Positions 2,581 to 60,230 of a DNA stretch of 64,000 nucleotides are shown here, piece by piece. Below the pieces are notes generated by a model, which did not search any database, had not been told where the DNA came from, and was given only the letters and a program-made list of their open reading frames with translations. Numbering within the stretch: position 1 is the first letter of the stretch; each line of letters starts with the position of its first letter. Source of the stretch: an uncultured Eubacteriales bacterium. Its GTDB lineage: Bacteria > Bacillota > Clostridia > Christensenellales > Aristaeellaceae. Where the stretch lies: assembly GCA_900315315.1 (NCBI GenBank), contig OMYT01000007.1:31731-95730 (forward strand), read 5' to 3'. Made by a program: the position numbers and the translations under genes.

Positions 2581-2648
2581 AATTTCGCGGCTGCGGCCGC
2601 GACCAGGAAATCAGGGGGCTTTCCGATCGCCCCCTGAAACCTCTTCGG
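2581..2648 (+). repeat. CTTCGG element E1 (modules A+B)
   Basis: Module A pairs CGCGGC with GCCGCG around TGCG. Module B pairs TCAGGGGGC with GCCCCCTGA around TTTCCGATC. The tail is CCTCTTCGG. It lies between guaD and xdhA and has no following T-run, so it does not look like an ordinary terminator. Confidence 0.8.
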
Positions 2649-2717
2649 CCTCGGGTGAGAAAAGAAGGAAATAAAATATGCAAAATGAGTTAAGTATGGG
2701 ATAAAGGGGGTTGACCT

Positions 2718-5003
2718 GTGTATACGGGACAGAGCGTAAAGAGAGTGGATGCCTTTGACAAGGTAACGGGGCGCTGCAAGTATACGGATGATCTGTGCGA
2801 CAGAAAAGCGTATATTGCCCGGATCCTGCATTCCACCATTGCCAACGGGAAAGTAGTGTCTTTCGATACGTCAGAGGCGGAGAAAGTACCGGGAGTCGTA
2901 AAGATCCTGACCTGCTTTGACCTGACAGAGAAGCACTATTTCCCGACAGCGGGACATCCCTGGTCCACGGATCCGGGCCATCAGGATGTGGCAGACCGGC
3001 TGATCCTGACGGAGCGGGTGCGCTTCTATGGAGACGACATCGCGGCAGTGGTGGCGGAGGACGAGGTAGCGGCTGCCCAGGCGCTGCGACTGATCAAGGT
3101 GGAGTATGAGGAATATCCGTTCGTGCTGGATGTGCAGAAAGCCATGGAGGACGGCGCACCGCTGCTGCATGAGGAATACCCGAACAACATTCTGAAGCAT
3201 ACCCAAATCCGGCAGGGCGATTATGAGAAGGCGATCCAGGAACCGGGACTGATCAAGGTGGAAGGCTGGTATGAGACGCCGACCGTCCAGCACTGCCACA
3301 TTGAGAACTTCATCTGTTATGCCGAGAAGGAAGGAGACAAGATTGTCGTTACTTCCTCCACGCAGATCCCCCATATTGTACGACGGATTGTAGGCCAAGC
3401 ACTGGGCATCGGCTGGGGAAATGTACGGGTGATCAAACCCTACATCGGCGGCGGATTCGGAAACAAGCAGGATATCCTATACGAACCGCTGTGCGCCTGG
3501 CTGAGCCTGCAGACGGGCGGACACCTGGTGAAACTGGACGTGCCGAGAGAAGAAACGTTCGTCTGCAACCGGGTGCGGCATTCCATCCGGAACCACATCA
3601 TCTCCTGGGTGCGGCCGGACGGGACCTACGCGGCCAGGAAACTGGAAGCCTTTTCGGATCAGGGCGCCTACGCGTCCCACGGGCACAGCATCTGCGCCAA
3701 AGGCGCGGGCGCGTTCCCGCAGCTGTATCCATGCCCGAACGTGGAAGTGGACGCCTATACGGTGTTCACGAACAAACCGGTGGCCGGCGCCATGAGAGGT
3801 TACGGGATTCCCCAGGCAATGTGGGCGGTGGAATCCCATACGGAGGACGTCTGCGCGGCGATCGGGGCGGATCCGCTGGAATTCCGGCGGAAGAACCTGA
3901 TGCCCGTGGGCTATGTGGACGGATTCTCCAAGAATGAAAATTACTTTGACTCCTTCAACCAGTGCCTGGACAAGGCGATGAAAGCCATCGATTACGAGAA
4001 GAAGGTGAAGAAGTATCAGAACCAGACCGGAGACATCCGGCGGGGCATTGGTATGGCGGTGTTCTGGTACAACACGGCGGTATGGCCCATCTCGCTGGAA
4101 AGCTCCAGCTGCCGGATGGTGCTGAACCAGGACGGATCCTTCCAGCTGCAGCTTGGCGAGACAGAGATCGGCCAGGGCGCGGATACAGCCTTTGCCCAGA
4201 TGGCGGCCGATGTGGTCGGCGTTCCGATGGATAAGGTGCATGTGGTGTCCTGCCAGGATACGGATGTGACGCCCTTCGGTACCAGCGCCTACGCTTCGCG
4301 GCAGACTTACATTGCGGGATTTTCGATTCGCCAGACGGGCCTTCAGCTGAAAGAAAAGATCCTGGATTACGCCCATGAACTGACCCGGATGCCGGCGTTC
4401 AACCTGGACATTCAAGACGGGAATATCGTCCGGACGACGGACGGGCGGGTACTGATGACCCTGGAAGAGCTGGCGACGGAAGCATTGTACAGCCTGACAA
4501 ACAGCCGTCATATTACAGCGGAGAGCACCTATCAGATCAAATCCAACGCGTATTCCTTCGGATGCACGATTGCAGAAGTGGAAGTCGATATTCCGATGTG
4601 CCGGGCGAAGCTGCTGAATGTGGTGAACTGCCACGACGCCGGAAAACTGATCAACCCTGCGCTGGCAGAGGCGCAGGTGCACGGCGGCATGAGCATGGGC
4701 ATCGGCTTCGGAATGAGTGAGAAGCTGATCTTCGATGAGAAGACGGGACGGCCGCTGAACAACAACCTGCTGGATTATAAACTTTCCACATTCCTGGATC
4801 ACCCGACGCTGATGGCGGAATTTGTGGAAAATCCGGAACCGACCAGCGCCTTCGGAACGAAGGGACTGGGCGAGCCGCCTGCCTGCTCGGTGGCACCGGC
4901 AATCCGGAATGCGATCTTCCATGCGACGGGGGTCGGGCTGAAGAATGCTCCGGCGAATCCGCATAACCTGTTTAAAGCGTTTAAGGAGGCAAACCTGATA
5001 TAG
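2718..5003 (+). CDS. xdhA: Xanthine dehydrogenase-type hydroxylase, molybdenum-binding subunit
   Basis: This 761-residue protein is the large, molybdopterin-binding catalytic subunit of a xanthine dehydrogenase-family hydroxylase. An N-terminal a/b-hammerhead (KVTGRCKYTDDL) is followed by Mo-cofactor motifs GGGFGNKQD, GAMRGYGIPQ, GQGADTAF and KGLGEPP, the last holding the catalytic glutamate. It starts at GTG, with AAAGGGGG ending 7 nt upstream. The FAD subunit (5175) and 2Fe-2S subunit (6055) follow, giving the separate three-subunit arrangement. Purine context and the selenium maturation genes downstream suggest a purine hydroxylase, possibly with labile selenium at Mo. The exact substrate (xanthine, hypoxanthine or purine) cannot be read from sequence. 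Confidence 0.93.
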   Translation: MYTGQSVKRVDAFDKVTGRCKYTDDLCDRKAYIARILHSTIANGKVVSFDTSEAEKVPGVVKILTCFDLTEKHYFPTAGHPWSTDPGHQDVADRLILTERVRFYGDDIAAVVAEDEVAAAQALRLIKVEYEEYPFVLDVQKAMEDGAPLLHEEYPNNILKHTQIRQGDYEKAIQEPGLIKVEGWYETPTVQHCHIENFICYAEKEGDKIVVTSSTQIPHIVRRIVGQALGIGWGNVRVIKPYIGGGFGNKQDILYEPLCAWLSLQTGGHLVKLDVPREETFVCNRVRHSIRNHIISWVRPDGTYAARKLEAFSDQGAYASHGHSICAKGAGAFPQLYPCPNVEVDAYTVFTNKPVAGAMRGYGIPQAMWAVESHTEDVCAAIGADPLEFRRKNLMPVGYVDGFSKNENYFDSFNQCLDKAMKAIDYEKKVKKYQNQTGDIRRGIGMAVFWYNTAVWPISLESSSCRMVLNQDGSFQLQLGETEIGQGADTAFAQMAADVVGVPMDKVHVVSCQDTDVTPFGTSAYASRQTYIAGFSIRQTGLQLKEKILDYAHELTRMPAFNLDIQDGNIVRTTDGRVLMTLEELATEALYSLTNSRHITAESTYQIKSNAYSFGCTIAEVEVDIPMCRAKLLNVVNCHDAGKLINPALAEAQVHGGMSMGIGFGMSEKLIFDEKTGRPLNNNLLDYKLSTFLDHPTLMAEFVENPEPTSAFGTKGLGEPPACSVAPAIRNAIFHATGVGLKNAPANPHNLFKAFKEANLI

Positions 5004-5025
5004 GCATTCAACCCTTTCCCCCTAC

Positions 5026-5082
5026 CCCCTTCCCCACGCAGAAACAGATCTGTATTGTTGATTGACTTGCGTGGGGACGGGG
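5026..5082 (+). repeat. Inverted repeat between xdhA and xdhB
   Basis: CCCC-TT-CCCCACGCA at 5026-5040 is complementary to TGCGTGGGG-A-CGGGG at 5068-5082, forming a long stem with a 27-nt loop. It lies inside the xdhABC operon and could act as an mRNA-processing or stability hairpin. It lacks the TTTCCGA/CTTCGG signature of the main element family. Confidence 0.55.
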
Positions 5083-10749: not shown

Positions 10750-10809
10750 GGATTTCGCGCCTGCTGGCGCGACCAAAGGGCTTTCCGATCGCCCTTTGGA
10801 AACCTTCGG
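10750..10809 (+). repeat. CTTCGG element E2 (modules A+B)
   Basis: Module A pairs CGCGCC with GGCGCG around TGCT. Module B pairs CCAAAGGGC with GCCCTTTGG around TTTCCGATC. The tail is CCTTCGG. It begins directly after the ssnA stop codon. The AAA/TTT pairs replace those of other copies, so the stem is conserved as structure. Confidence 0.82.
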
Positions 10810-16472: not shown

Positions 16473-16526
16473 GGATTTCGCGCCTGCGGGCGCGACCAGG
16501 GCTTTCCGATCGCCCTGGACCTTCGG
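16473..16526 (+). repeat. CTTCGG element E3 (modules A+B)
   Basis: Module A pairs CGCGCC with GGCGCG around TGCG. Module B pairs CCAGGGC with GCCCTGG around TTTCCGATC. The tail is ACCTTCGG. It lies between ygeW and arcC. Confidence 0.82.
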
Positions 16527-17574: not shown

Positions 17575-17628
17575 GGATTTCGCGTCTGCGGACGCGACCA
17601 GGGCTTTCCGAGTGCCCTGGACCTTCGG
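17575..17628 (+). repeat. CTTCGG element E4 (modules A+B)
   Basis: Module A pairs CGCGTC with GACGCG around TGCG, a third stem sequence that keeps pairing. Module B pairs CCAGGGC with GCCCTGG around TTTCCGAGT. The tail is ACCTTCGG. It lies between arcC and xdhD. Confidence 0.82.
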
Positions 17629-17668: not shown

Positions 17669-20245
17669 ATGTCTGAGGTTTTTCGGTTTGTTGTAAACGG
17701 GATTGAACGGACAACAGAGGCGGATAAGCCGCTGCTGCGGTATCTGCGGGATGACCTGCACCTTTATTCCGTGAAGGACGGGTGCAGCGAAGGCGCCTGC
17801 GGTACATGCACGGTGATTGTGGACGGGAAGGCAACAAGGGCGTGCATCCTGACAACAAGAAGAGCGGCCGGGAAAACGATCCAGACGGTGGAAGGCCTGA
17901 CGGATTTCGAGAAGGAAGCCTTCGTCTATGCTTTCGGGACCAGCGGATCGGTTCAGTGCGGCTTCTGCACGCCGGGTATGGTGATGGCCGGAAAGGCGCT
18001 GATCGACAAGAATCCGGATCCTTCGGAGGAGGAGATTCGGGCGGCTTTGAAGGGAAATCTCTGCCGGTGCACCGGTTACTGGAAGATTATCGACGGCGTC
18101 AAACTCGCGGCGTCTGTTCTCCGGGGAGAGACGAAGATCGATCCGGAGCGTGAAAAGGGAGACCGGTACGGCGTTGGACAGAAGGCGTTTCGCGTTGATA
18201 TCCGCGAAAAGGTGCTTGGATACGGCAAATATCCGGATGATGTCGACATGGAAGGCATGCTGCACCTCTCCGCGGTGCGATCGCAATATGCCAGAGCCCG
18301 GGTGCTTTCCATCGATGCGACGGAAGCGTTGGCAATGGAAGGCGTGACCGGCGTGCTGACAGCGGAAGATGTGCCTCACAACAAAGTCGGGCATCTGCAG
18401 CAGGACTGGGATGTCATGATTGCCGTGGGGGATATCACACGGTGCGTAGGAGACGCAATCTGCCTGGTGGTCGCGGAGACGGAGGAAATCCTGGAGGAAG
18501 CCAAGAAGAAGATCCGGATCGAGTATGAGGTACTGACACCGGTCGCCTCCATTGCTGAAGCGATGGCTCCTGACGCACCGAAGGTGCACAGCGCCGGGAA
18601 TCTGTGCCAGACGAGGCATGTAACCCGGGGCGACGCGGCAACGGCACTCCGGAACTCGGCCTATACGGTTACGAAGTCCTTCAGTACCCCGTTCACGGAG
18701 CACGCGTTCCTGGAACCGGAATGCGCAGTGGCCTTCCCCTACAAGGACGGCGTCAAGATCCTGAGTACGGACCAGGGTGTGTACGACACCCGGAAGGAAA
18801 CGGCGATCATGTTCGGGTGGGAACCGGAGCGGGTTGTGGTGGAAAACCAGCTGGTCGGCGGCGGGTTCGGCGGCAAAGAGGACGTATCGGTCCAGCACCT
18901 CGCCGCGCTGGCGGCATGGATTTACAAACGGCCGGTCAAAGCCCGCATGAAACGGCAGGAATCGATCAATTTCCATCCGAAACGCCATGCGATGGAAGGT
19001 ACTTTCACGCTCGGATGTGACGAGAACGGGATCTTTACGGCACTGGACTGTGATATCTATTTTGACACGGGCGCTTATGCCTCCCTGTGCGGACCGGTGC
19101 TGGAGCGAGCCTGCACGCATTCCGTTGGCCCGTACTGCTACCAGAATACGGATATCCGCGGATACGGATACTATACCAACAATCCGCCTGCCGGCGCTTT
19201 CCGGGGGTTCGGGGTCAGCCAGAGCGAGTTTGCCCTGGAGGCCATGATCAATCTGCTGGCGGAGAAGGTCGGGATTTCTCCCTGGGAAATCCGGTTCCGC
19301 AATGCCATTGAACCGGGCAAAGTTCTGCCGAACGGGCAGATTGCCGACTGTTCCACAGCGCTGAAGGAAACGCTGCTGGCAGTGAAAGACGTTTATGAAG
19401 CCAACCGTTCGCATGCCGGAATTGCCTGCGCGATGAAGAACTCGGGCGTGGGCGTCGGCCTGCCGGACAAGGGACGCGCGAAGCTGGTGATCGAGGACGG
19501 CGTGTGCGTGGTCTACTGTGCCGCATCGGATATCGGGCAGGGATGTCTGACGGTGTTCTGTCAGGATGTGGCGGAGGCGACCGGCCTGCCGCTCTCGAAG
19601 ATCCGAAACGGCAGCGGCAGCACGGAAGCGGCGCCGGATTCCGGAACGACCTCCGGATCCCGCCAGACACTGCTGTCGGGCGAGGCAGTGCGGATGGCGG
19701 CGCTGCAGCTGAAAGAAGCGCTGGATGAAGCCGGCGGAGATCTTGCCGCGCTCAACGGGAAAGAATTCTTCTATGAATATTTTGAGCCGACCGATAAGCT
19801 GGGAGCGGACAAACCGAATCCCAAGAGCCATATTGCTTACGGATACGCAACGCATGTGGTGATCCTGGATGATAACGGCATGGTGAAAGAAATATATGCT
19901 GCGCATGATTCCGGAAAGGTGGTCAATCCGATCTCCATCCAGGGACAGATCGAAGGCGGCGTGCTGATGAGCATGGGATATGCGCTGACGGAGGATTTCC
20001 CGCTGGAGAACGGTGTGCCGAAAGCCAAGTTCGGGACGCTGGGCCTGCTGCGTGCGACACAGATTCCCGAGATCCACGCGATCTATGTGGAAAAGGACGA
20101 ACTGCTGCCCGTGGCATACGGCGCGAAGGGTATCGGCGAGATTGCCGCGATTCCCACGGCACCGGCGGTCCAGGGAGCGTATTACGCGCTGGACGGGGTG
20201 TTCAGGACGAAGCTGCCGATGGAACATACTTATTACAGAAAATAA
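17669..20245 (+). CDS. xdhD: XdhD-like selenium-dependent molybdenum hydroxylase (fused 2Fe-2S and Mo domains)
   Basis: A 858-residue fusion. Residues 1-150 hold two [2Fe-2S] clusters (GCSEGACGTCTV, then QCGFCTPGMVM and LCRCTGYWKI). The rest is the molybdopterin-binding region with KVLGYGKYPDD, GGGFGGKEDV, GAFRGFGVSQ, QGCLTVFCQD and GAKGIGEIA, which contains the catalytic Glu. There is no FAD domain. This layout matches E. coli XdhD and the selenium-dependent xanthine dehydrogenase group. No in-frame TGA is present, so any selenium would be a labile cofactor rather than selenocysteine. In context it should oxidise purines or xanthine; its electron partner may be XdhB or YgfK (inference). The frame ends next to element E5. 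Confidence 0.93.
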   Translation: MSEVFRFVVNGIERTTEADKPLLRYLRDDLHLYSVKDGCSEGACGTCTVIVDGKATRACILTTRRAAGKTIQTVEGLTDFEKEAFVYAFGTSGSVQCGFCTPGMVMAGKALIDKNPDPSEEEIRAALKGNLCRCTGYWKIIDGVKLAASVLRGETKIDPEREKGDRYGVGQKAFRVDIREKVLGYGKYPDDVDMEGMLHLSAVRSQYARARVLSIDATEALAMEGVTGVLTAEDVPHNKVGHLQQDWDVMIAVGDITRCVGDAICLVVAETEEILEEAKKKIRIEYEVLTPVASIAEAMAPDAPKVHSAGNLCQTRHVTRGDAATALRNSAYTVTKSFSTPFTEHAFLEPECAVAFPYKDGVKILSTDQGVYDTRKETAIMFGWEPERVVVENQLVGGGFGGKEDVSVQHLAALAAWIYKRPVKARMKRQESINFHPKRHAMEGTFTLGCDENGIFTALDCDIYFDTGAYASLCGPVLERACTHSVGPYCYQNTDIRGYGYYTNNPPAGAFRGFGVSQSEFALEAMINLLAEKVGISPWEIRFRNAIEPGKVLPNGQIADCSTALKETLLAVKDVYEANRSHAGIACAMKNSGVGVGLPDKGRAKLVIEDGVCVVYCAASDIGQGCLTVFCQDVAEATGLPLSKIRNGSGSTEAAPDSGTTSGSRQTLLSGEAVRMAALQLKEALDEAGGDLAALNGKEFFYEYFEPTDKLGADKPNPKSHIAYGYATHVVILDDNGMVKEIYAAHDSGKVVNPISIQGQIEGGVLMSMGYALTEDFPLENGVPKAKFGTLGLLRATQIPEIHAIYVEKDELLPVAYGAKGIGEIAAIPTAPAVQGAYYALDGVFRTKLPMEHTYYRK

Positions 20246-20303
20246 GGGGGCTTTCCTGTTTAACAAAGGTGCCACTGGCACCTTTGCCCCTTAACCCCTT
20301 CGG
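20245..20303 (+). repeat. CTTCGG element E5 (modules B+D)
   Basis: The outer arm AAGGGG pairs with CCCCTT. The loop starts TTTCC and carries a D hairpin in which AAAGGTGCC pairs with GGCACCTTT around ACT. The tail is AACCCCTTCGG. It abuts the xdhD stop codon. Confidence 0.75.
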
Positions 20304-25416: not shown

Positions 25417-25456
25417 TTCCGCGCCTGCAGGCGCGGCCAGGGTTCTGGACCTTCGG
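25417..25456 (+). repeat. CTTCGG element E6 (degenerate A+B)
   Basis: Module A is intact (CGCGCC with GGCGCG around TGCA). Module B has shrunk to CCAG-GGTT-CTGG without the TTTCCGA loop. The tail is ACCTTCGG. It lies in the divergent gap between yqeC and the XdhC-family gene. Confidence 0.7.
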
Positions 25457-25485: not shown

Positions 25486-26526
25486 ATGGCGGGTTTCTTT
25501 GAAACAATCCGGCAAAAGAAAGGGAGCGGACAGCTTCTGGCAGCCTGGATCATTGACGGGAACAACGCGGGAGCCAGAATGCTTCTTAGTCAGGAAGAAT
25601 TGCTTTTCCGGGATGAAGATTTTCCGGAAGAACTTGCGGAGAAGATCCGGAAATCCGGCGGGGATCGAAAGGGTGTTTTAAAGAAAGCAGGTTCCCGTGT
25701 ATTTATGGATCATCTGTCAGACGGCAGAAGACTTGTGATCTGCGGCGCCGGCCATGTATCCCTGTGTGTGATCCGCCTTGGCGTGATGCTCGGCTATGAG
25801 GTGACGGTGATCGAGGATCGGGAGGAGTTTGCAGAAAAGGCCCGGGCAGCAGGCGCACATCAGGTGATCTGTAAACCCTTCGGAGAGGCTCTGGACGGCA
25901 TCACGGGAGATCCGGTGACGGCCTTTGTAATCATGACCCGGGAGCATATCCACGATGTGGAGTGCCTGCGAAGGATCCTGACAAAAACCTATGCTTATGC
26001 CGGGATGATGGGAAGCCGGAGCAGAACTCAGAACGTCCGGCAGCAGCTGCTGGATGAGGGATACGACGTTCGGAAAGTCGATGACGTACAGATGCCTATC
26101 GGGCTTCCCATCGGGTCCAGAACACCGGAGGAAATCGCTGTTTCCGTGATGGCGCAGGTTATCCAGGTGATGAATGCTGCCGACCCTGGGGAAGATTTTC
26201 CGAAGGGAATGCCGGAGGAACTGGCAGCGATTGAAAAGGCAGAAAACGGTCGCGGTGTGCTTGCCATGATTGTGGAGAAAAGCGGCGAGGCACCCAGAAG
26301 GCCCGGAACAAAAATGCTGGTCAGAAAGGACGGCAGTTTTCTGGGAACAGTCGGCGGGGGATATGCCGAGGCGGTGATCCTGGAGACGGCGAGGAAGATG
26401 GTCAGGGAAGGAACACCGCAGAATACGCTGATCAAGGTCAGCATGAAAAAAGGAGCAGTGCATTGCGGGGGAGAGATAGAGGTGTTTCTTTGGGGAATAT
26501 CGAAGGGGTTTACGATCGCCACCTGA
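25486..26526 (+). CDS. XdhC/CoxI-family molybdenum hydroxylase chaperone
   Basis: XdhC-family proteins bind Mo-cofactor and help sulfurate and insert it into xanthine dehydrogenase-type enzymes. The 346-residue protein has an N-terminal XdhC/CoxI region, a Rossmann domain (VICGAGHVSLCVIRLGVM near residue 80, then VTVIEDREEFAEKA), YAGMMGSRSRTQ, and a C-terminal CoxI-like part (GTVGGGYAE and HCGGEIEVFLW). ATG 25486 has AGAGGAG 8 nt upstream; ATG 25465 lacks a site. The last seven codons and the stop lie inside element E7, so the C-terminal tail appears to derive from the repeat. modA follows 42 bp later. Confidence 0.9.
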   Translation: MAGFFETIRQKKGSGQLLAAWIIDGNNAGARMLLSQEELLFRDEDFPEELAEKIRKSGGDRKGVLKKAGSRVFMDHLSDGRRLVICGAGHVSLCVIRLGVMLGYEVTVIEDREEFAEKARAAGAHQVICKPFGEALDGITGDPVTAFVIMTREHIHDVECLRRILTKTYAYAGMMGSRSRTQNVRQQLLDEGYDVRKVDDVQMPIGLPIGSRTPEEIAVSVMAQVIQVMNAADPGEDFPKGMPEELAAIEKAENGRGVLAMIVEKSGEAPRRPGTKMLVRKDGSFLGTVGGGYAEAVILETARKMVREGTPQNTLIKVSMKKGAVHCGGEIEVFLWGISKGFTIAT

Positions 26527-26537
26527 AACCCCTTCGG
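26503..26537 (+). repeat. CTTCGG element E7 (module B variant, overlaps a CDS end)
   Basis: AGGGGTTT pairs with AAACCCCT around a loop containing TTACGATCGCC; the tail is CTTCGG. The 5' part is translated as the last residues of the XdhC-family protein and the stop TGA is within the element. Confidence 0.65.
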
Positions 26538-28123: not shown

Positions 28124-29153
28124 AGTCAATGTTGAGAAACAAGCCGGTTCATTTCATCTGCACGCCTCTTTTACCTGTGAAAAGGAATTTCTGGGCCTTC
28201 TGGGCGCTTCCGGCAGCGGCAAGAGCATGACGCTGAAATGCATTGCCGGGATTGAAAAGCCGGACTGCGGCCGGATCGTGTTGGACGGCCGGGTGCTTTT
28301 CGATTCGGAGCAAAAGATCAATCTGCCACCGCGGCAGCGGCGTGTGGGATATCTGTTCCAGAACTATGCACTGTTTCCGGACATGACCGCACGGCAGAAT
28401 ATCCTCTGTGGTCTGCATGCTGAAAAAGACAGGCAAAAAAGAGAAAAACGGGCAGACGAGATAATGGAACTGCTGCAGATCCGGGATGTTGCCACTCTGA
28501 AACCATGGCAGCTTTCCGGCGGCCAGGCGCAGCGGACGGCTCTGGGGCGGATTCTGGTCAATGAACCGGAACTGCTGATGCTGGACGAGCCTTTTGCCGC
28601 GCTGGATACACACCTGCGGCTGAAACTGCAGATGGAATTGAAAGACCTTCTGTCCGGATATGACCGGGGGATCATTATGGTCACCCATGACAGGGATGAA
28701 GCCTTCCGGATGTGCGACCGGATCGGCGTGATCGACCAGGGGCAGATGCTGGCTGTGAAAGAAACCAGGGAACTGTTCGCGGATCCGGGAAGCCGGGCAG
28801 TGGCTTCGATCACGGGCTGCAAAAACATCGCCTATGCCCGGAAAACGGGCAAGCATGAAGTGTTTGTGCCCGAATGGAATGTTTACCTGAAGACGGAGAA
28901 AACGGTTCGGGACGAGCTGAAAGCCGTGGGGATCCGGGCGCACAGCTTTCATCCCGAAGAACAGGAAAACCGTTTTTCCGTCACGATTGTGCGGGAAATG
29001 GAAGAACCGTTTGAATGGGTCAGCGAATTTGTTTATGAGGGTCAGGCTCCCGCCAGTCCGGCGGTATGGTGGAGATATTCGAAAGCGTTCAGGCTGTCCG
29101 AGCAGCCCGGCGCACTCGGGGTTTCGACGGATGAAGTGCTGCTATTGTATTAA
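28113..29153 (+). CDS. modC: Molybdate ABC transporter, ATP-binding protein
   Basis: ModC powers molybdate uptake. The 346-residue protein has Walker A GASGSGKSM near residue 35, signature LSGGQAQRTALGRIL, Walker B LLMLDEPFAALD and the switch histidine in IMVTHDRDEAF. A C-terminal extension of about 110 residues follows the ATPase domain; its fit to a molybdate-binding TOBE domain is uncertain. RBS AGGAGG is inside the end of modB. Element E8 begins at the stop codon. Confidence 0.93.
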   Translation: MALEVNVEKQAGSFHLHASFTCEKEFLGLLGASGSGKSMTLKCIAGIEKPDCGRIVLDGRVLFDSEQKINLPPRQRRVGYLFQNYALFPDMTARQNILCGLHAEKDRQKREKRADEIMELLQIRDVATLKPWQLSGGQAQRTALGRILVNEPELLMLDEPFAALDTHLRLKLQMELKDLLSGYDRGIIMVTHDRDEAFRMCDRIGVIDQGQMLAVKETRELFADPGSRAVASITGCKNIAYARKTGKHEVFVPEWNVYLKTEKTVRDELKAVGIRAHSFHPEEQENRFSVTIVREMEEPFEWVSEFVYEGQAPASPAVWWRYSKAFRLSEQPGALGVSTDEVLLLY

Positions 29154-29253
29154 GGGGGCTTTCCGAGTGCCCTGGGCTGTTGCCCGTTCTCTGCTGAAAA
29201 CTGTCCACTGGACAGTTTTCCGGGCGCGACGAACCCCCCTTAAACCCCTTCGG
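29153..29253 (+). repeat. CTTCGG element E8 (modules B+C+D)
   Basis: Outer arms AAGGGGG and CCCCCTT enclose the TTTCCGAGT loop start, a GCCCG/CGGGC module C and a D hairpin (AAAACTGTCC with GGACAGTTTT around ACT). The tail is AAACCCCTTCGG. It lies between modC and the promoter of the BMP operon. Confidence 0.82.
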
Positions 29254-30477: not shown

Positions 30478-30483
30478 AAAGTT

Positions 30484-30582
30484 GTGGGGGCTTTCCGATC
30501 TTCCTGGGCTGCCGCCCGTTCTCCGCTGAAAACTGTCCACTGGACAGTTTTCCGGGCGCTACGAACCCCCACACCCCTTCGG
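30484..30582 (+). repeat. CTTCGG element E9 (modules B+C+D)
   Basis: Outer arms GTGGGGG and CCCCCAC, loop start TTTCCGATC, module C (GCCCG/CGGGC), and D hairpin (AAAACTGTCC with GGACAGTTTT around ACT). The tail is ACCCCTTCGG. Its outer stem differs from E8 but stays paired. Confidence 0.83.
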
Positions 30583-33349: not shown

Positions 33350-34305
33350 ATAAAGTCTTTACGGACGGCCTTTCCTTTGCGCTTCCTCTTCTGATTATGG
33401 CGGTCGGCGCGCTGTATTCCGAAAAGAGCGGCGTGACCAATCTGGCAATCGAAGGCTTTCAGGGAGTCGGCGCGTTTTTCGGCGCGCTGGCCGCGACACT
33501 GCTTGCGCCGCTGATGGGCAACGGAAACCAGATGATCATTTACATCGCCATCCTCTGCGCAGCTGTCGGGGGAGCCCTGTTCTCCTGCATTCACGGGCTG
33601 CTCTGCATCCGTTTCAGGGCCAACCAGGTGATCAGCGGCGTGGTGATCAATATCCTGTCAGTGGCACTGACAGCTTTCTTTACCAGCGCCGCGAACACCG
33701 CGATCAACGGAACCGCGTCCAACAAATTTGTGCTGGACGTTTCGGCCAGGTTTTCGATTCCGCTGCTGTCTCAGATTCCCTGGATCGGCGGGCTGTTTAC
33801 GAACATGTATCCTTTTGAAATCATCATTATCGTGCTGGTGATCATATTATGGTATCTGCTGAACCGGACCCGGTTCGGAATGCGGCTGCGGGCCTGCGGC
33901 GAGAATCCCCAGGCGGTGGACGCGGCCGGGGCTAATGTCATCCGGATCCGCTGGGCTGCCGTGATGATTTCCGGCGCGCTGTCCGGGATCGGCGGTATCT
34001 GCTTTGCCTACTCCCTGATCGGGAACTTCTCTCCCAGCATCTATCAGGGATTCGGCTATCTTGCCATTGCGGCCATGATCTTCGGCAACTGGAGCATCGG
34101 ACCGACCACGCTGGCATGCCTGGTGTTCGGACTGGCGAAGTCCGGCGGGTTGCAGCTGTGTATCGCGGCCGGGCTGCCAAGCAATTATACCGACCTTTTC
34201 CTGATGCTGCCCTATGTGCTGACCTTGCTGCTGCTGGTGTTCTTCTCCAAGAAAAATCACCCGCCGAAGGCAGCGGGTGAACCATGGGATAAGAGTAAAA
34301 GATAA
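33346..34305 (+). CDS. ABC transporter permease (first BMP cassette, subunit 2)
   Basis: A 319-residue second permease of the BMP importer. NLAIEGFQGVGAFFGALAA and RACGENPQAVDAAGANVI are the paired motifs of this family, where the latter loop contacts the ATPase. About eight membrane segments. It ends the operon; element E10 starts at the stop codon. Confidence 0.9.
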   Translation: MNKVFTDGLSFALPLLIMAVGALYSEKSGVTNLAIEGFQGVGAFFGALAATLLAPLMGNGNQMIIYIAILCAAVGGALFSCIHGLLCIRFRANQVISGVVINILSVALTAFFTSAANTAINGTASNKFVLDVSARFSIPLLSQIPWIGGLFTNMYPFEIIIIVLVIILWYLLNRTRFGMRLRACGENPQAVDAAGANVIRIRWAAVMISGALSGIGGICFAYSLIGNFSPSIYQGFGYLAIAAMIFGNWSIGPTTLACLVFGLAKSGGLQLCIAAGLPSNYTDLFLMLPYVLTLLLLVFFSKKNHPPKAAGEPWDKSKR

Positions 34306-34373
34306 GGGGCTTTCCGATCTTCCTGGGCTGCCGCCCGTTCTCCGGGCGCTACGAACCCCTTAAACCCCTTCGG
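34304..34373 (+). repeat. CTTCGG element E10 (modules B+C, no D)
   Basis: Outer arms AAGGGG and CCCCTT, loop start TTTCCGATC, and module C with GCCCG-TTCTC-CGGGC. Compared with E9 it lacks exactly the inner D hairpin. The tail is AAACCCCTTCGG. It sits between convergent genes. Confidence 0.82.
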
Positions 34374-34906: not shown

Positions 34907-34943
34907 CCAGGGGGCTTTCCGATCGCCCCCTGGACCCCTTCGG
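34907..34943 (+). repeat. CTTCGG element E11 (module B)
   Basis: CCAGGGGGC pairs with GCCCCCTGG around TTTCCGATC; the tail is ACCCCTTCGG. It is antisense to the flanking minus-strand genes yedF and yedE. Confidence 0.82.
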
Positions 34944-34960
34944 GTAATCTGTTTTTTGAG

Positions 34961-35081
34961 AGGGGTTTTCCGAGTGCCCTGGGCTGCCGCCTCCAACAAA
35001 GGCTCCACTGGAGCTTTCGCTACTGAAAACGAGCACACTGGCTCGTTTTCCTGGCGCGTCGACCCCCCCAAACCCCTTCGG
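34961..35081 (+). repeat. CTTCGG element E12 (modules B+C with two D hairpins)
   Basis: AGGGGTTT pairs with the distal AAACCCCT. The loop begins TTTCCGAGT and carries two D hairpins: AAAGGCTCC with GGAGCTTT around ACT, and AAAACGAGC with GCTCGTTTT. The tail is CCCCTTCGG. It is the most elaborate copy and is antisense to yedF/yedE. Confidence 0.78.
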
Positions 35082-37526: not shown

Positions 37527-38417
37527 ATGGAACTGAAACACTTATTGTCTTACGCGACGGTAGTGCGGCTCGGCAGTTTCAGCAGGGCGGCCGAAGAACT
37601 CTATATCGCCCAGCCGACGATCAGCCTGCATGTGCGCCAGTTGGAGGAGGAGCTGCAGACCAAACTTCTGATCCGGACGACCAAGAGCCTGGAACTCACG
37701 GAAAAGGGACGGGAAGTATACGAATGCGCTGTCAGTATTCTCCAGCTCAGGGACCGGATCACGGAAAAATGCTCGGACGGGGGGAGACAGATCATCCGTC
37801 TCGGCGCTTCCACGATTCCTTCCGCCTATCTTCTGCCGGAGATCCTGCCCGCATACGTGAAACAGCATCCCGCCACCTATTTTACCATTGACCAGGGGGA
37901 CAGCCGGTCTGTGACGGAGAAGCTGGCAGAAGGGGTTATCGATATCGGCCTGATCGGCATGAAACCGGCTTCTACAGACATTGCTGCTGAACCGTTTTGT
38001 GAAGATTCAGTTGTCATTATCACGCCGGTCCGGGAACCCTTCCTGACGATGAAGGAGAGCCATTCCGCAACGCTTCAGAGACTTTTTGAGGAACCGGTTA
38101 TTCTGCGGGAAGAGGGAAGCGGAAGCCTGAAGGCAGCTGATACATTCCTTGCCAATGCCGGATACGACGGGGACGAACTTCGCGTTGCGGCCAGGACCAA
38201 CGATCCGGAAGCTATCAAAAATCTGGTGGCCGGAGGAATGGGAATCTCGATGATTTCCTCCAAGGCGGCGGAGGATTACAGCCGGGAAAACAGGGTGCTT
38301 GTATTCGATTTTCCGGAGATTTCCGGCAACAGGCAGTTTTATATTGCCACCAGGAAGCACGTTGGGCTGCCGGCAAGCGCAGAACGTTTTCTGCGCTTTG
38401 TCAAAGAGTTTTATTAG
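37527..38417 (+). CDS. LysR-family transcriptional regulator
   Basis: A 296-residue LysR regulator with an N-terminal helix-turn-helix (GSFSRAAEELYIAQPTISL) and a periplasmic-binding-like sensor domain. It lies 21 bp after the aminotransferase gene and next to the divergent yedE operon, so it probably controls selenium or sulfur genes. The stop TAG overlaps element E13. The C-terminus resembles CysL/CbbR-type regulators in a general way; the ligand is unknown. Confidence 0.9.
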   Translation: MELKHLLSYATVVRLGSFSRAAEELYIAQPTISLHVRQLEEELQTKLLIRTTKSLELTEKGREVYECAVSILQLRDRITEKCSDGGRQIIRLGASTIPSAYLLPEILPAYVKQHPATYFTIDQGDSRSVTEKLAEGVIDIGLIGMKPASTDIAAEPFCEDSVVIITPVREPFLTMKESHSATLQRLFEEPVILREEGSGSLKAADTFLANAGYDGDELRVAARTNDPEAIKNLVAGGMGISMISSKAAEDYSRENRVLVFDFPEISGNRQFYIATRKHVGLPASAERFLRFVKEFY

Positions 38418-38515
38418 GGGGCTTTCCGAGTGCCCGGGGCTGCCGCCCGTTCTTTGCTGAAAACTGTCCACCGGACAGTTTTCCGGGCGCGACGAACCCC
38501 CCTTAACCCCTTCGG
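38416..38515 (+). repeat. CTTCGG element E13 (modules B+C+D)
   Basis: Outer arms AGGGGG and CCCCCT, loop start TTTCCGAGT, module C (GCCCG/CGGGC), D hairpin (AAAACTGTCC with GGACAGTTTT around ACC). The tail is ACCCCTTCGG. The upstream stop codon overlaps its first bases. Confidence 0.82.
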
Positions 38516-38520
38516 TTATC

Positions 38521-38551
38521 AGGGGGGCGATCGTCCCCTAAACCCCTTCGG
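38521..38551 (+). repeat. CTTCGG element E14 (degenerate module B)
   Basis: AGGGG and CCCCT flank GGCGATCGT, and the tail is AAACCCCTTCGG. It follows E13 directly as a tandem partner. The TTTCCGA loop is lost. Confidence 0.6.
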
Positions 38552-44260: not shown

Positions 44261-44263
44261 AAA

Positions 44264-44363
44264 CCGGGGGCTTTCCGAGTGCCCAGGGCTTCCGCCCGTT
44301 CTTCGCTGAAAAAGAGCCACTGGCTCTTTTTCCGGGCGCTCGGAACCCCCCGGACCCCTTCGG
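44264..44363 (+). repeat. CTTCGG element E15 (modules B+C+D)
   Basis: Outer arms CCGGGGG and CCCCCGG, loop start TTTCCGAGT, module C (GCCCG/CGGGC), D hairpin (AAAAAGAGCC with GGCTCTTTTT around ACT). The tail is ACCCCTTCGG. A different D stem from E8 keeps full pairing. Confidence 0.83.
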
Positions 44364-44381
44364 CGGAATGAAGGAGAAAAA

Positions 44382-44415
44382 CCGGGGGCTTTTCGAGTGC
44401 TCCGGATCCCTTCGG
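44382..44415 (+). repeat. CTTCGG element E16 (module B, tandem partner of E15)
   Basis: CCGG and CCGG flank GGGCTTTTCGAGTGCT; the tail is ATCCCTTCGG. The flank CGGCGGAATGA recurs after both E15 and E16, suggesting local duplication followed by loss of inner modules, or the reverse. Confidence 0.7.
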
Positions 44416-44456
44416 CGGAATGAGGTTTATGAGAAGCAAGGGAAAGGATTTATTCT

Positions 44457-45299
44457 ATGAAAGTAAGGATCACGGGAGACAGTACATGCGACCTGAGTCC
44501 GGAACTGCTGCGGAAGTATGATTTTGCCATGGCGCCGCTGAGCATTATTATTGACGGGGAAGTATTCCATGACGGAGTGGATGTGACGCCCCGGGATATA
44601 TTCCGCGCGAGCGACGCGGGGAAATCTGTCCGGACCGCGGCGGTGAACACCTATGAGTACAAGGAATTTTTTGCTGAACAGCTGAAGAACTGCGACCAGC
44701 TGGTGCATGTCTGTATCAGCAGCGATTTTTCTTCCTGTTATGCGGATGCATGCGAGGCAGCGGCAGAGCTTGACAACGTGTTTATTGTGGACAGCCGCAG
44801 TCTTACCACCGGCAGTGCCCTGCTTATGCTGGAAGGCGTGGAAATGGCTGAGAAGGGCATGGAGGGCAATGAAATCGCAGAAGCACTGCGCGGGAAAACA
44901 AGTCTGGTGGATGCCAGCTTTATCGTCCGGACAGTTGAATATCTGCGCAGAGGCGGACGCTGCAGCGGCCTGGAGGCGCTGGGAGCAAAACTGCTGCATA
45001 TCCGTCCGTCCATTGTGGTGCAGGACGGGAAAATGCACCCCGGTGACAAGTACCGGGGACGGTATGAGCATTACCTGAAGCACTATATTGAGGACACGCT
45101 GGCGAATGATAAGTCAATCGATTTCCGGCGAGTGTTCATCACGCATTCCCCGAGTGAAGAAGGGCTTGTGCGTTTTGCCATCGATACAGTGAAGAGCTAC
45201 GGCCTGTTCCAGGAAGTACTGGAGACAATGGCAGGCTGTACCGTCTGCACTCACTGCGGACCGGATACTCTCGGTATTATATTCCTGAGGAAGGAATAA
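44457..45299 (+). CDS. DegV-family fatty acid-binding protein
   Basis: A 280-residue DegV protein; the family binds fatty acids and may serve fatty-acid kinase FakA. KVRITGDSTCDLSPELL is the N-terminal signature, RTAAVNTYEYKEFF follows, and the fatty-acid-contact motifs VHVCISSDFSSCY and VDSRSLTTGSALLM are present. A peptidoglycan-binding gene follows by 7 bp. Ribosome-binding site AAAGGA is fair. Confidence 0.9.
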   Translation: MKVRITGDSTCDLSPELLRKYDFAMAPLSIIIDGEVFHDGVDVTPRDIFRASDAGKSVRTAAVNTYEYKEFFAEQLKNCDQLVHVCISSDFSSCYADACEAAAELDNVFIVDSRSLTTGSALLMLEGVEMAEKGMEGNEIAEALRGKTSLVDASFIVRTVEYLRRGGRCSGLEALGAKLLHIRPSIVVQDGKMHPGDKYRGRYEHYLKHYIEDTLANDKSIDFRRVFITHSPSEEGLVRFAIDTVKSYGLFQEVLETMAGCTVCTHCGPDTLGIIFLRKE

Positions 45300-45306
45300 A
45301 CGACTG

Positions 45307-45717
45307 ATGCAAAAGAACCCGAAGATGATTGCCGGGGTGACCGCACTGGCGGTAATGATCATTCTCGGCGCGGTCCTGGTGACACAGATGATCCCGACGA
45401 TCCGGGAAGTGCAGCGGGAAATGAGCCTGACGCCGACACCGCTCCCGCAAATGCCGGATTCCGTTTGGGCTGAGGTGATCGACGCAAGCGAACCGACACC
45501 GGAACCGGCGCTCTCCAACGGATCACAGGGAGAGAAGGTGGAGGAACTGCAGAAACGCCTGCAGGCGCTGGGGTATTATACGGGGGAGATCGACGGGCAG
45601 TTCGGTCCGGGCACCCGGGAAGCAGTTGTCGCATTTCAGAAGAATAACGGGCTGGATGCGGACGGGCTGGCGGGAACAGAGACACTGAAGGTGCTCTATT
45701 CCCAGGAAGCAAAATAG
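45307..45717 (+). CDS. Membrane-anchored peptidoglycan-binding protein
   Basis: A 136-residue protein with an N-terminal membrane segment (MIAGVTALAVMIILGAVLV), a proline-rich linker, and a C-terminal PG_binding_1 domain: GSQGEKVEELQKRLQALGYY, DGQFGPGTREAVVAFQ. No catalytic domain is attached. It is probably outside the membrane, bound to cell wall. The stop is followed directly by element E17. Confidence 0.87.
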   Translation: MQKNPKMIAGVTALAVMIILGAVLVTQMIPTIREVQREMSLTPTPLPQMPDSVWAEVIDASEPTPEPALSNGSQGEKVEELQKRLQALGYYTGEIDGQFGPGTREAVVAFQKNNGLDADGLAGTETLKVLYSQEAK

Positions 45718-45818
45718 AAAGGGGGCTTTCCGATCTTCCGGGGCTGTCGCCCGTTCTCTGCTGAAAACTGTCCACTGGACAGTTTTCCGGGCGCGCCGAA
45801 CCCCTTAAACCCCTTCGG
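45718..45818 (+). repeat. CTTCGG element E17 (modules B+C+D)
   Basis: Outer arms AAGGGG and CCCCTT, loop start TTTCCGATC, module C (GCCCG/CGGGC), D hairpin (AAAACTGTCC with GGACAGTTTT around ACT). The tail is AAACCCCTTCGG. Confidence 0.82.
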
Positions 45819-45931
45819 TTGGAATGCTTTTGCTAAGGGAACTTTTCGAATGCTCGAAATGCTTTATATTGAACAGCAACAATCAGAAAGTTTTCACAGA
45901 ACAGTCACTGTTTTATACCGGAACAATAACA

Positions 45932-45973
45932 ATCGGGAGGTATCCTCTTTATAAGAAGAGGGTATCTCCCGAT
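45932..45973. other. Eighteen-pair hairpin in a convergent intergenic region
   Basis: ATCGGGAGGTATCCTCTT pairs with AAGAGGGTATCTCCCGAT, with two wobble pairs, around TATAAG. No T-run follows. It belongs to a 428-bp gene-free stretch (45718-46145) that otherwise holds E17, a terminator and E18. Confidence 0.6.
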
Positions 45974-45996
45974 CCTGCTTCATTCATATAGATCAC

Positions 45997-46050
45997 TGAG
46001 CCGCTTTGACCGGTAAAGACCGGAACAAAGCGGCTCAGACAATTTTATTT
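45997..46050 (+). terminator. Long hairpin terminator between convergent genes
   Basis: TGAGCCGCTTTG pairs with CAAAGCGGCTCA, with an inner CCGGT/ACCGG pair around AAAG, followed by AATTTTATTT. Strong intrinsic terminator for the + strand; the symmetric stem may also stop the minus-strand transcript. Confidence 0.72.
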
Positions 46051-46097
46051 CGCACCTCCGGTGCGACCAGGGCTTTCCGATCGCCCTGGACCTTCGG
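46045..46097 (+). repeat. CTTCGG element E18 (modules A+B)
   Basis: Module A pairs CGCACC with GGTGCG around TCC, a fourth stem sequence. Module B pairs CCAGGGC with GCCCTGG around TTTCCGATC. The tail is ACCTTCGG. It lies between convergent genes. Confidence 0.82.
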
Positions 46098-46145
46098 CCA
46101 CAATGTTTGGCTTTGACCTTATAGATGTTGCCGATTTTTCGGTAA

Positions 46146-48137
46146 TTATTTATCGTCTTTGGCCAGGGGGAGAGGAAGTTTCTTCCAGTCGAAGTTTTCG
46201 ATTTCTTCCTTCGTTTTGGTTTCCAGACATTCATAGTAGACTGTGATTGTCCCGCTGCGCTTGTCGACGAAAGCATGCTGTTTGATATCGTAAGGCAGGA
46301 TGTTGTAGAAAACGAAGTCCGACCAGGCGCCGACGGTTGCGTCAAACTCAACGGGCATGTAGTGCGTACCGTCGTCCGTGTGAGGTTCGCGCTCCCAGAT
46401 GAAGACGGGGAACGAGATGACGGAGAAATAAGTCAGGGAACTGGTATGGCAGATTCCGCCGCCGATGCCGACGCCGCCCTTGGAACCTTTATGAATCACG
46501 CCGCCCAGCTTCCAGCCGTTTTTCGCGGTAACGGGTCCCAGATTCTTCAGATAGGAATACTTTTTGCCGGTGCCGATCACCACGCCGTCCATCAGGCCCA
46601 TCGCCTTGTTGATGTTATAGACACGGTTCTTCCACGTGCCGTGGCCCTGGGTGAGGCCATAGAACAGCGTGTTGCCGCCGATGATATCGCCTTTTTTCGC
46701 ATCGGCCCAGTTCACAAAGGGATGATACTCACCGAACTCAGCCGGGACAGTGGTCCAGCAGCGGCGGACCAGGACATTGTAATCCCCGTCATCGCGAAGC
46801 TGGACGCAGACCATATCGCCTTTCTGGAGCATATGCCCTTTATAGAGATTTCTCTTGTCCGTAACATGGATCGGCTTTGTGACGATGATATAACCGGAGG
46901 GCCTGTAACCATTATACCAGGGGAGCTCGTATTTATAGGGATCCATGGAGTGATAGTGGAAGATGTACTTTGATTTGGCATAACCGGTGACCTGTCCGTC
47001 CCAGGTGCGGATTTTGCACCACTCATCGCCAAAGGCCAGCACACGGACCTTTTTCCCTGTCTTGATTTCACCGAGCCGGCGGCTTGAGTTGGTGGGTTCA
47101 GACCAGATGGCGACTTTTTTCAGAGTCATGGCGATATAACGCATCTCATCCGTGTCGGATTCGCCGATCTCGACGCCTTCCGGAACCAGGGGAGCGTCCC
47201 GGATATCCATTCCTTCATAGGTGGATTCTTCCGTGTTTTCCAGTTCTGCCTCGGTGAATTTGGGTGTTTCCGAACCCCGACCTTCCGTATCCCAGACGGG
47301 TGTGCCGGGATCTGCTTCCACGGAGGGGGTAACATCCTGAGGGATATCTTCCGGGTTTTTACCGGGGATATCGAACCAGGAGATCCGGGCGTAGCCGTAA
47401 TGCTCCTTGGAATACTCAATTTTGCACCAACCATCGTTATAGTATTCGACGATGGTTACAACGGCCCCTTTGCTCATGCTGTGGATCTTTTTCGACTCCA
47501 GATCATGTGCCTCCCGGGCATTACAGGGGGTATTGACGATGGCCCGGTCTTCAGCCTGGACGGCGACAAGAGAACTTTCTTCCTCTGAGGCGGCAGTTTC
47601 TGTTTTCTCTTCGACGGAAGGATCTGTTTCCACCTCATCAGGGAATCCGGTGTCTTCTTCATCCTCACTCTCTTCTTCACGGGGATCATCCCGCTCGGCA
47701 AGAGCTTCCTCCGTGTCGGCTGAAGATTCTTCTTCTTCATCCTCGGAAGCGGTTTCCTTCTGATCTTCCGGCTTGGCGGTTTCTTCCTTTTTAGCGTCCT
47801 TTGCCTCGGATTTCGTAGCGGGAATGCTTTCCTCACTCCGGGTCACGTACAGCCAGGACTCCTTGACATAGCCGGTGTCACCGGAATCATTGTAGATGAC
47901 TTTGCACCAGCCGTCATCAAAATACCCGATGACGGTCAGCTTTTTGCCCCATTCGAGGTTGCGCAGCTTGGCGGAATCCACATCCCGGTCCTCTCGGACA
48001 TTACACTGGGTGCGGGTGACAGCCTTGTCGTTGGCAGGCTGCATTTCCGCGTCCTCTGCGACGGCGGCGAAAGACAGGATCCCCGACAGAAGGGTGATCA
48101 CCAGCAGCAAGGCGGTCCATCTCTTCATATTCAACAC
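46146..48137 (-). CDS. Secreted SH3-repeat and VanW-domain cell-wall protein
   Basis: A 663-residue exported protein. Signal peptide MKRWTALLLVITLLSGILS is followed by an SH3b domain (about 35-95, CNVREDRDVDSAKLR, GWCKVIYN), a long Glu/Asp/Lys-rich linker (about 100-190), a second SH3b (about 195-260, CNAREAHDLESKKIH), a third SH3-like domain (about 335-395), and a C-terminal VanW domain (GVGIGGGICHTSSLTYFS, EREPHTDDGTHYMP). Likely binds cell-wall polymer; VanW function is not well defined. GTG 48137 has GGAGGG 5 nt upstream; ATG 48128 is the alternative. A promoter lies at 48181. Confidence 0.88.
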   Translation of the reverse strand: MLNMKRWTALLLVITLLSGILSFAAVAEDAEMQPANDKAVTRTQCNVREDRDVDSAKLRNLEWGKKLTVIGYFDDGWCKVIYNDSGDTGYVKESWLYVTRSEESIPATKSEAKDAKKEETAKPEDQKETASEDEEEESSADTEEALAERDDPREEESEDEEDTGFPDEVETDPSVEEKTETAASEEESSLVAVQAEDRAIVNTPCNAREAHDLESKKIHSMSKGAVVTIVEYYNDGWCKIEYSKEHYGYARISWFDIPGKNPEDIPQDVTPSVEADPGTPVWDTEGRGSETPKFTEAELENTEESTYEGMDIRDAPLVPEGVEIGESDTDEMRYIAMTLKKVAIWSEPTNSSRRLGEIKTGKKVRVLAFGDEWCKIRTWDGQVTGYAKSKYIFHYHSMDPYKYELPWYNGYRPSGYIIVTKPIHVTDKRNLYKGHMLQKGDMVCVQLRDDGDYNVLVRRCWTTVPAEFGEYHPFVNWADAKKGDIIGGNTLFYGLTQGHGTWKNRVYNINKAMGLMDGVVIGTGKKYSYLKNLGPVTAKNGWKLGGVIHKGSKGGVGIGGGICHTSSLTYFSVISFPVFIWEREPHTDDGTHYMPVEFDATVGAWSDFVFYNILPYDIKQHAFVDKRSGTITVYYECLETKTKEEIENFDWKKLPLPLAKDDK

Positions 48138-51681: not shown

Positions 51682-51801
51682 GGATTTCGCGGCTGCGGCC
51701 GCGACCAGGGCTTTCCGAGTGCCCGGGGCTGCCGCCCGTTCCTTACTGAAAACGGGCACACCGGCCCGTTTTCCGGGCGCGCGGAACCCCTGGACCTTCG
51801 G
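51682..51801 (+). repeat. CTTCGG element E19 (modules A+B+C+D)
   Basis: Module A pairs CGCGGC with GCCGCG around TGCG. The outer B arms CCAGGG and CCCTGG enclose the TTTCCGAGT loop start, module C (GCCCG/CGGGC) and a D hairpin (AAAACGGGC with GCCCGTTTT). The tail is ACCTTCGG. It is the only copy with all four modules and splits two permease genes. Confidence 0.82.
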
Positions 51802-58422: not shown

Positions 58423-58476
58423 GGATTTCGCGGCTGCGGCCGCGACCAGGGCTTTCCGATCGCCCTGGACCTTCGG
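58423..58476 (+). repeat. CTTCGG element E20 (modules A+B)
   Basis: Module A pairs CGCGGC with GCCGCG around TGCG. Module B pairs CCAGGGC with GCCCTGG around TTTCCGATC. The tail is ACCTTCGG. It sits in the hydrogenase signalling operon. Confidence 0.82.
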
Positions 58477-58527
58477 CCTATGTATCTTGTTAATGGTTGA
58501 AGTTTGCTTAGAAAGGCTTAGGTAAGC

Positions 58528-59823: not shown

Positions 59824-59836
59824 GGGGAGCAAAAAG

Positions 59837-60190
59837 ATGACTGTTCAGGAACTGATTGAACTGATTGAGGCAAAGGACATGACGCCGGAAGCGGACAAGA
59901 GTGCGGAGGTATCCTGCGGATATACGTGCGATCTGCTGAGCTGGGTGATGGCGCACGGGGCGGCGGGCATGGCATGGGTCACGGTTCAGACGCATATGAA
60001 CGTGATCGCGGTGGCCAGTCTGATGGAAATGGCAGCGGTCATTATTCCGGAGGACATTGAGATGGAGGCGCCTTCGCTGGAGAAAGCGAAGGAGGAAGGT
60101 ATTACCGTGCTGCAGACATCTCTGACCGCGTACGAGATCTGCGCGAGGCTGTCCAAGGCCGGGCTGCCCGGCAAAGACCGTGATCATTGA
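59837..60190 (+). CDS. DRTGG-domain protein (second copy)
   Basis: A 117-residue DRTGG-like protein. LIELIEAKDMTPEADKSAEVS, HMNVIAVASLMEMAAVII, and ITVLQTSLTAYEICARLS mirror the first copy, especially in the SLTAYE/PLTTYT block near the end. RBS GAGGGGAG. It follows the sensory hydrogenase by 13 bp. Paired DRTGG proteins could form a heteromeric ligand sensor. Confidence 0.83.
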   Translation: MTVQELIELIEAKDMTPEADKSAEVSCGYTCDLLSWVMAHGAAGMAWVTVQTHMNVIAVASLMEMAAVIIPEDIEMEAPSLEKAKEEGITVLQTSLTAYEICARLSKAGLPGKDRDH

Positions 60191-60192
60191 GA

Positions 60193-60230
60193 TTGGGGGG
60201 CTTTCCGATCGCCCCCCAAGCCCCCTTCGG
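60193..60230 (+). repeat. CTTCGG element E21 (module B)
   Basis: TTGGGGGGC pairs with GCCCCCCAA around TTTCCGATC. The tail is CCCCCTTCGG, the longest tail C-run, matching the longest G-run. Confidence 0.83.

Follow-up and report, generated by a model that had tools for sequence, protein, structure and literature searches.

The draft genome G000 (4.26 Mb) of an uncultured Eubacteriales bacterium carries a family of short intergenic repeats, which we analysed starting from one stretch of 64,000 nucleotides (contig OMYT01000007.1, G000:C77:31731-95730, hereafter the window) and followed into related genomes, denoted by G numbers. We interpret these sequences as dispersed non-coding DNA repeats whose conserved unit is probably a pseudoknot-clamped intrastrand triple helix, a reading to which we assign a probability of roughly 0.6. 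Comparison of the copies demonstrates covariation of stem and clamp, a rule that ties a third run to the purine strand and a constant frame with varying inserts. That stem, clamp and third run form a structure under selection is well supported by these comparisons, whereas a DNA triplex as the selected structure is likely but unproved. The best reading is of a new type of intrastrand-triplex repeat (PIT/BoxC-like), confined to one bacterial family and bearing an apparent pseudoknot clamp.

On the strand shown, the element has the order 5'-R-C-TTT-CCGA-TC-G-Y1-spacer-Y2-T-TCGG-3', in which R is a purine run, Y1 and Y2 are pyrimidine runs and the spacer is short. The loop between R and Y1 is TTTCCGATC; in the general anatomy the two bases after CCGA are not fixed and are followed by G and then Y1. 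Y1 is complementary to R and Y2 precedes TTCGG. In the proposed fold R would pair with Y1, the loop CCGA with the tail TCGG, and Y2 would lie along R in parallel (class III order), while the complement, in the order R2, R1, Y (class I), would be able to form G.G-C, A.A-T and T.A-T triads.

Both signature words of the family are in excess in the window, with 84 occurrences of CTTCGG and 39 of TTTCCGA; over 100 shuffles the former averaged 47.0 (at most 67) and the latter 12.4 (at most 23). A strict definition, which demands a purine run, a loop, a complementary run and a second pyrimidine run with loop and tail pairable as [CG]CG[AG]/TCG[GC], recovers 15 intact copies, all on the plus strand and all intergenic by simple gene calls; in 60 Markov simulations the average was 0.017 per 64 kb, with a maximum of 1, and no copy was recovered from the reversed window. 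Six more sites retain the CTTCGG end and have lost part of the core (ends at 20303, 25456, 26537, 35081, 38551 and 44415). Together these make 21, the number of copies counted in the first-pass annotation, although the identity of the two sets cannot be stated as no list was given there. The modular repeat family it described is borne out, with many copies beyond the window: genome-wide, a looser short-form pattern matches G000 at 148 places and a tighter one at 145, and there is no match when the short-form pattern is read backwards. An early loose finder, which put 67 of 147 G000 matches inside genes, was replaced by the stricter one. The hairpin described in that annotation, ending in CTTCGG, has a real stem but was incomplete, as there is also a loop-tail clamp and a third run following the purine strand. 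Its CTTCGG end is moreover not invariant: a large subfamily of other genera ends in CTTCGC with a matching change in the loop, and a few decayed copies end otherwise (for example TTTGG in locus L008). In agreement with the earlier failure to recognise a named family, an Rfam search of the window returned two tRNAs above the gathering threshold and no match to the repeats; a permissive scan restricted to 44200-46150 gave two sub-threshold matches (E 0.1 and 0.85).

The clamp covaries between loop and tail. Loop CCGA pairs with tail TCGG, and in a second subfamily loop GCGA pairs with tail TCGC. A pattern open to all four loop/tail combinations found 1253 copies in 16 genomes, of which 966 are CCGA/TCGG, 286 are GCGA/TCGC and a single one, in G033, is mismatched, so that 1252 of 1253 are matched. 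Four genomes hold both kinds (CCGA and GCGA, respectively: G223, 24 and 221; G140, 396 and 7; G044, 5 and 21; G177, 3 and 26), and about 71 mismatched clamps would be expected there if loop and tail were independent; none was seen. Pairs were also counted directly, since a covariance model cannot encode pseudoknots or third strands. The alignment comprised 74 of 109 matches, the 35 left out being 31 with the tail one base earlier, 3 chance matches and 1 (L177) with another tail frame. In these 74 distinct short elements 95.4% of the stem and clamp cells are paired against 82.5% after shuffling, and 115 cells are changed on both sides against 36; none of 500 shuffles reaches either value, and slid partners pair in only 38-56%. 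The numbers of pairs with a double change and of further pair types lie within the shuffles (reached by 115 and 83 of 500). Because many of the 74 rows were fetched with clamp letters in the pattern, the combination counts over 16 genomes are the fairer test of the clamp. Single stem mismatches (A.C 6, G.T 3, few cases) display no bias like the wobble seen in the clamp and discussed below; G.T against A.C mismatches were considered as a discriminator between RNA and DNA and set aside as too few and mixed.

The second pyrimidine run follows R in a parallel register, offset by one: a G of R is faced by C, and an A by either A or T. Among the elements whose stem is 4 or longer, 145 distinct types (487 copies), the rule holds in 624 of 652 cells, comprising 512 of 532 for C opposite G and 112 of 120 for A or T opposite A. 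When Y2 is shuffled among types of equal lengths, the mean is 82.9% and the largest of 500 values 85.9%; the neighbouring registers give 74.5% and 75.3%, and the antiparallel one, the register of an ordinary R-Y2 duplex, 54.7%. As some fetch patterns fixed the last two letters as CC, we recounted without these positions and obtained 343 of 366 (shuffled mean 72.7%, largest 77.3%); the corresponding values are 194 of 207 (75.1%, 82.6%) for stretches fetched by place and 114 of 122 (80.8%, 89.3%) for G000 alone. An interior A of R, lying between two Gs, is faced by T in 19 cases, A in 11 and C in 1. Purine-motif triads (G.G-C, A.A-T and T.A-T) accept T and A, whereas the pyrimidine motif accepts T only (PMC4666352), and the bases opposite the interior A would therefore fit purine-motif triads on the complementary strand. 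Since a polymerase copies no mirror relation, the Y2 rule points to selection on the third strand.

The outer frame of the element is constant while the loop cargo varies. With the strict finder, Y1 lies more than 4 nucleotides beyond the loop letters in 30 of 113 sampled G000 copies, and in 22 of these 30 the intervening stretch measures 66-69 nucleotides and has its own hairpin. The arms of these inner hairpins covary (GAAAACTGTCC/GGACAGTTTTC, GAAAACGAGCC/GGCTCGTTTTC and GAGAAAGAGCC/GGCTCTTTCTC). An optional upstream hairpin, module A (TTTCGC...GCGACC), accompanies 23 of 99 placed copies by one pattern. The stem also reaches into the flanks: in 66 of the 99 placed copies, those lacking a CCA-type flank, bases outside the G-run and outside Y1 form a mean of 2.09 consecutive pairs (shuffled 0.72, largest 1.09), with 14 of the 66 having no flank pair. 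The paired flank sometimes overlaps the end of the upstream gene, as at 29150-29253. Selection or hairpin-templated copying could each account for the flank pairing. The copies in the window, all on the plus strand, are as follows.

2611..2648, plus: intact short element with R TCAGGGGG and clamp CCGA/TCGG, preceded by hairpin module A (about 2581-2605)
10773..10809, plus: intact short element of type CCAAAGGG; module A upstream
16496..16526, plus: intact short element of type CCAGGG; module A upstream
17598..17628, plus: intact short element of type CCAGGG; module A upstream
20244..20303, plus: decayed element with a different loop insert; loop CCGA lost (TTTCCTG)
25437..25456, plus: decayed element following a module A hairpin
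26503..26537, plus: decayed element with loop TTTACGATC
29150..29253, plus: long element with a 68-nucleotide insert and inner hairpin before Y1; the upstream predicted gene ends at 29153, inside the stem
30483..30582, plus: long element, intact by the strict definition
34303..34373, plus: long element whose insert is shortened; the predicted genes on either side converge
34907..34943, plus: intact short element between two minus-strand predicted genes
34960..35081, plus: long element with partly decayed stem, between two minus-strand predicted genes
38414..38515, plus: long element; the upstream predicted gene ends within it, at 38417
38521..38551, plus: decayed element, loop lost, directly after the element at 38414..38515
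44264..44363, plus: long element, intact by the strict definition
44382..44415, plus: decayed short element with a TTTTCGA loop, directly after the element at 44264..44363
45720..45818, plus: long element between convergent predicted genes
46067..46097, plus: intact short element with module A, adjoining the 3' end of a minus-strand predicted gene
51705..51801, plus: long element; module A upstream
58446..58476, plus: intact short element with module A
60193..60230, plus: intact short element, absent from this gap in 28 of 30 genus loci compared

Some related arrangements were also observed. Directly upstream of some cores, in L037 (copy at 990), L044 (182 and 707), L174 and L189, there is an unclamped motif of the same logic, GTGGGGCTCTGCCCCACACCCC, with a purine run, a short loop, a pyrimidine run and a second pyrimidine run in that order; it suggests that a wider class of putative triplex repeats is present in these genomes. 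In G024 (L049:8926-9464) four cores in the same orientation lie 167-168 nucleotides apart, each inside a longer repeated unit. Elsewhere in the window, a perfect 37-nucleotide tandem duplication occupies 62639-62712, between one predicted gene ending at 62520 and the next starting at 62798.

Orientation was analysed in 784,526 bases of G000, mostly contigs known to carry copies. Here 110 of 113 clamp-bearing copies run along the strand of positive guanine-cytosine (GC) skew, that is the leading strand, and the three exceptions all lie in one stretch whose skew is 0.005. Predicted genes follow the positive-skew strand in 481 of 654 cases (Fisher P 1.7e-10 against the copies), and 17 of 99 placed copies are opposite to both neighbouring genes. 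Among 100 listed of the 145 genome-wide places, contigs with at least two listed copies hold them on one strand. The elements are themselves C-rich on the positive-skew strand, and hence the skew is not made by them. Orientation in G000 thus follows replication rather than the neighbouring genes. Within the same genus, copies run along the local skew in 5 of 5 cases in G080, 15 of 16 in G088 and 1 of 2 in G067. In 26 of 99 G000 copies a weak downstream motif, [ATC]AT[GA], peaks at +5 after TTCGG and is possibly a target preference.

The repeats are restricted and patchy in their distribution. The looser pattern matches 13 of 60 genomes of the family (own included), several by single chance-like matches, with counts of 260 in G024, 86 in G033 and 2 in one genus-mate; 30 of 45 genomes of the genus match, and the GCGA form is found in 13 of 200 genomes. 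Outside the family, the strict pattern is absent from all 244 genomes of the class that were searched. Among the listed matches, those that are named are Clostridia assemblies, by title often from ruminant or other herbivore guts. Sequence comparison shows, for bacteria and tailed phages alike, that an orthologous site may hold a copy in one relative and lack it in another. For the gap at 60190-60287, 30 loci were compared (the best 30 of 42 genomes with a match); the element occurs in 2 (own and G077), and in most of the other 28 the genes nearly abut. The element is carried by 45 viral stretches, one of which encodes terminase, portal, protease and major head protein; the gap after the major head gene holds a copy in 3 of 26 related loci compared (of 30 found), with differing stems, and relatives 91-92% identical in the head protein have no copy. 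A phage search gave five unannotated records from human faeces. Megablast of one 65-nucleotide query against plasmids gave no match, and target duplications are not readable from the 60190-60287 gap or the phage gaps. It is reasonable to infer a selfish spread of the repeats, and we think that they are mainly selfish, with phage-aided spread between hosts, and not gene regulators.

Intrastrand triplex motifs, in which R, Y and a Hoogsteen run are consecutive in one strand, have been published for many bacteria as PIT/BoxC, with circular dichroism (CD) and nuclear magnetic resonance (NMR) evidence in vitro (PMC4666352); the repeats described here have this arrangement. As described in that paper, the enterobacterial PIT/BoxC/TMECO motifs are likewise short, intergenic, G/C-rich, multi-copy and patchy between relatives, with three consecutive runs that can form an intrastrand triplex and a complement of the partner class. 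The E. coli motif TMECO, the triplex of which forms in isolated strands by CD and NMR, is however given there as class II (Y-R-R) with highly uniform copies, loops of 3-6 and 3 nucleotides and no strand bias, and as not found on mobile elements. In the present repeats the complement belongs to class I (R-R-Y), the first loop, of 9 nucleotides or with inserts, is clamped to the tail, the runs covary between copies, copies lie in phage contigs, and orientation is locked to replication in one genus. The short-form loop is beyond the 1-6 nucleotides of ITxF and inside the 0-10 of an earlier search, both as told in PMC4666352, and in 30 of 113 copies Y1 is displaced by more than 4 nucleotides. TMECO/BoxC proper (CCCTCNCCC..GGGNGAGGG..GGGNGAGGG) has no exact match in the window and 391 loci, the published motif also allowing one mismatch. 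In the library searched we recognised no paper describing this repeat family, and nothing is claimed beyond that library.

A transcribed pseudoknot with a third strand, which protects or terminates mRNA 3' ends, is an unlikely alternative. In RNA triplex pseudoknots such as those of telomerase RNA and SAM-II, a stem, a helix that crosses it and a third strand likewise belong to a single fold, and covariation of stem and clamp is what structured RNA would show. As the first-pass annotation had noted, copies often follow genes, 37 of 77 placed copies with a same-strand upstream gene starting -2 to +10 nucleotides from its stop, and one clamp pair is a G.T wobble in 16 of 74 elements. Unlike the RNA pseudoknots, however, the repeats are dispersed, oriented by replication in one genus and have A opposite A-T (11 of 31 interior positions), for which a pyrimidine-motif triplex has no place. 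Purine-motif triplexes are reported to be unable to form in RNA (PMC4666352). Stem mismatches are not biased to G.T, and no Rfam match rises above threshold. In G000, 17 of the 99 copies placed are antisense to the genes on either side, and only 3 copies that are sense to genes and lagging occur, at skew 0.005; in G024, convergent genes flank 49 of 61 placed copies, which occur in both orientations. A terminator or mRNA-strand element is not our main interpretation, because orientation in G000 follows replication and not the neighbouring genes.

Movement as for REP/REPIN, in which a Y1 transposase (RAYT/TnpA) would act on single strands at the replication fork, seems quite improbable; it was considered at least for the strand-locked genus. 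Like REP/BIME/REPIN the elements are intergenic, palindromic, high in copy number and patchy, with opposite orientations close together in G024, and a replication-strand lock is what transposition through single-stranded DNA predicts. However, no Y1_Tnp match (PF01797, E <= 0.001) was detected in 8 of 13 carriers tested (G024, G033, G008, G044, G140, G223, G177 and G200), the richest among them, although draft genomes could hide a gene; the other five (G000, in partial pieces, G067, G088, G080 and G107) have one. Because a match is also present in 7 of 11 genomes whose element counts are zero or at chance level, its presence does not track the copies, and the third strand and pseudoknot are extra to REP/REPIN. 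The earlier statement that the window contains no transposase or RAYT gene stands for Y1_Tnp, with no G000 match on this contig; other transposases were not searched. A Y1 transposase match at G000:C49:1484-1767 is in two pieces (L026 and L031) and is probably broken, since part of the profile is missing between them. We give little credence to a clamped hairpin without a selected triplex, in which template-switch repair of quasi-palindromes would keep the arms complementary and Y2 would be a C-rich spacer. Repair of this kind has been described for imperfect inverted repeats (PMC7202029), and the extension of the stem into the flanks (2.09 against 0.72 pairs, 66 copies) speaks for this reading. 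Template copying nevertheless makes no mirror (parallel) relation, interior A is faced by T or A in 30 of 31 cases, and the Y2 rule persists without the C positions fixed by the search.

Several observations weigh against the clamped DNA triplex or its link to replication. The G.T wobble suits the shown strand better than its complement. Loci from three of the fetches were found with patterns fixing GCCC and CC before TT, the 145-type count required a match at the first clamp base, the Y2 types share ancestry, and part of the A-opposite-A signal may stem from the A-rich spacer (outer As). PMC4666352 reports no triplex footprint in E. coli cells. In G067 one of the 2 copies sampled opposes the local skew, as does 1 of 16 in G088, and in other genera the strand lock is not seen, with copies along the skew in 39 of 82 cases in G024, 14 of 36 in G223, 7 of 12 in G140 and 1 of 6 (too few) in G044; G024 and G223 have both orientations within the same stretches of at most 20 kilobases. 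Skew is a poor guide in G024, as its genes do not follow it either (127 of 263). All four carriers tested in the strand-locked genus (G000, G067, G088 and G080) have Y1_Tnp matches, which leaves some probability for Y1-driven spread in that genus, and no copying enzyme was identified in a search for Y1_Tnp alone, other transposases, introns and reverse transcriptases not being searched.

If the clamped triplex is correct, it would form while the strand is transiently single, during replication or in phage DNA, and copying or retention would act on the folded form. Replication could then account for the strand lock, either through insertion into one template or through loss of the other orientation. 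More tentatively, and with the odds clearly against it, one may propose a selfish DNA element whose replicating unit is the folded single strand itself, a clamped triple helix read by a fork enzyme, with copies entering or surviving in one strand only; as far as we know, this would be the first natural repeat family with covariation recording a DNA triplex in vivo.

The importance of intrastrand DNA triplexes in cells is an open question, for which these repeats would be a good natural test. The E. coli triplex motifs are too uniform to reveal selection on the fold. Here evolution supplies the test of the fold, because stem, clamp and third run stay matched although the sequences of the copies differ. 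The base swap between the two clamp subfamilies offers a natural control, and the strand lock in one genus opens a further way to study the encounter of such repeats with the replication fork.

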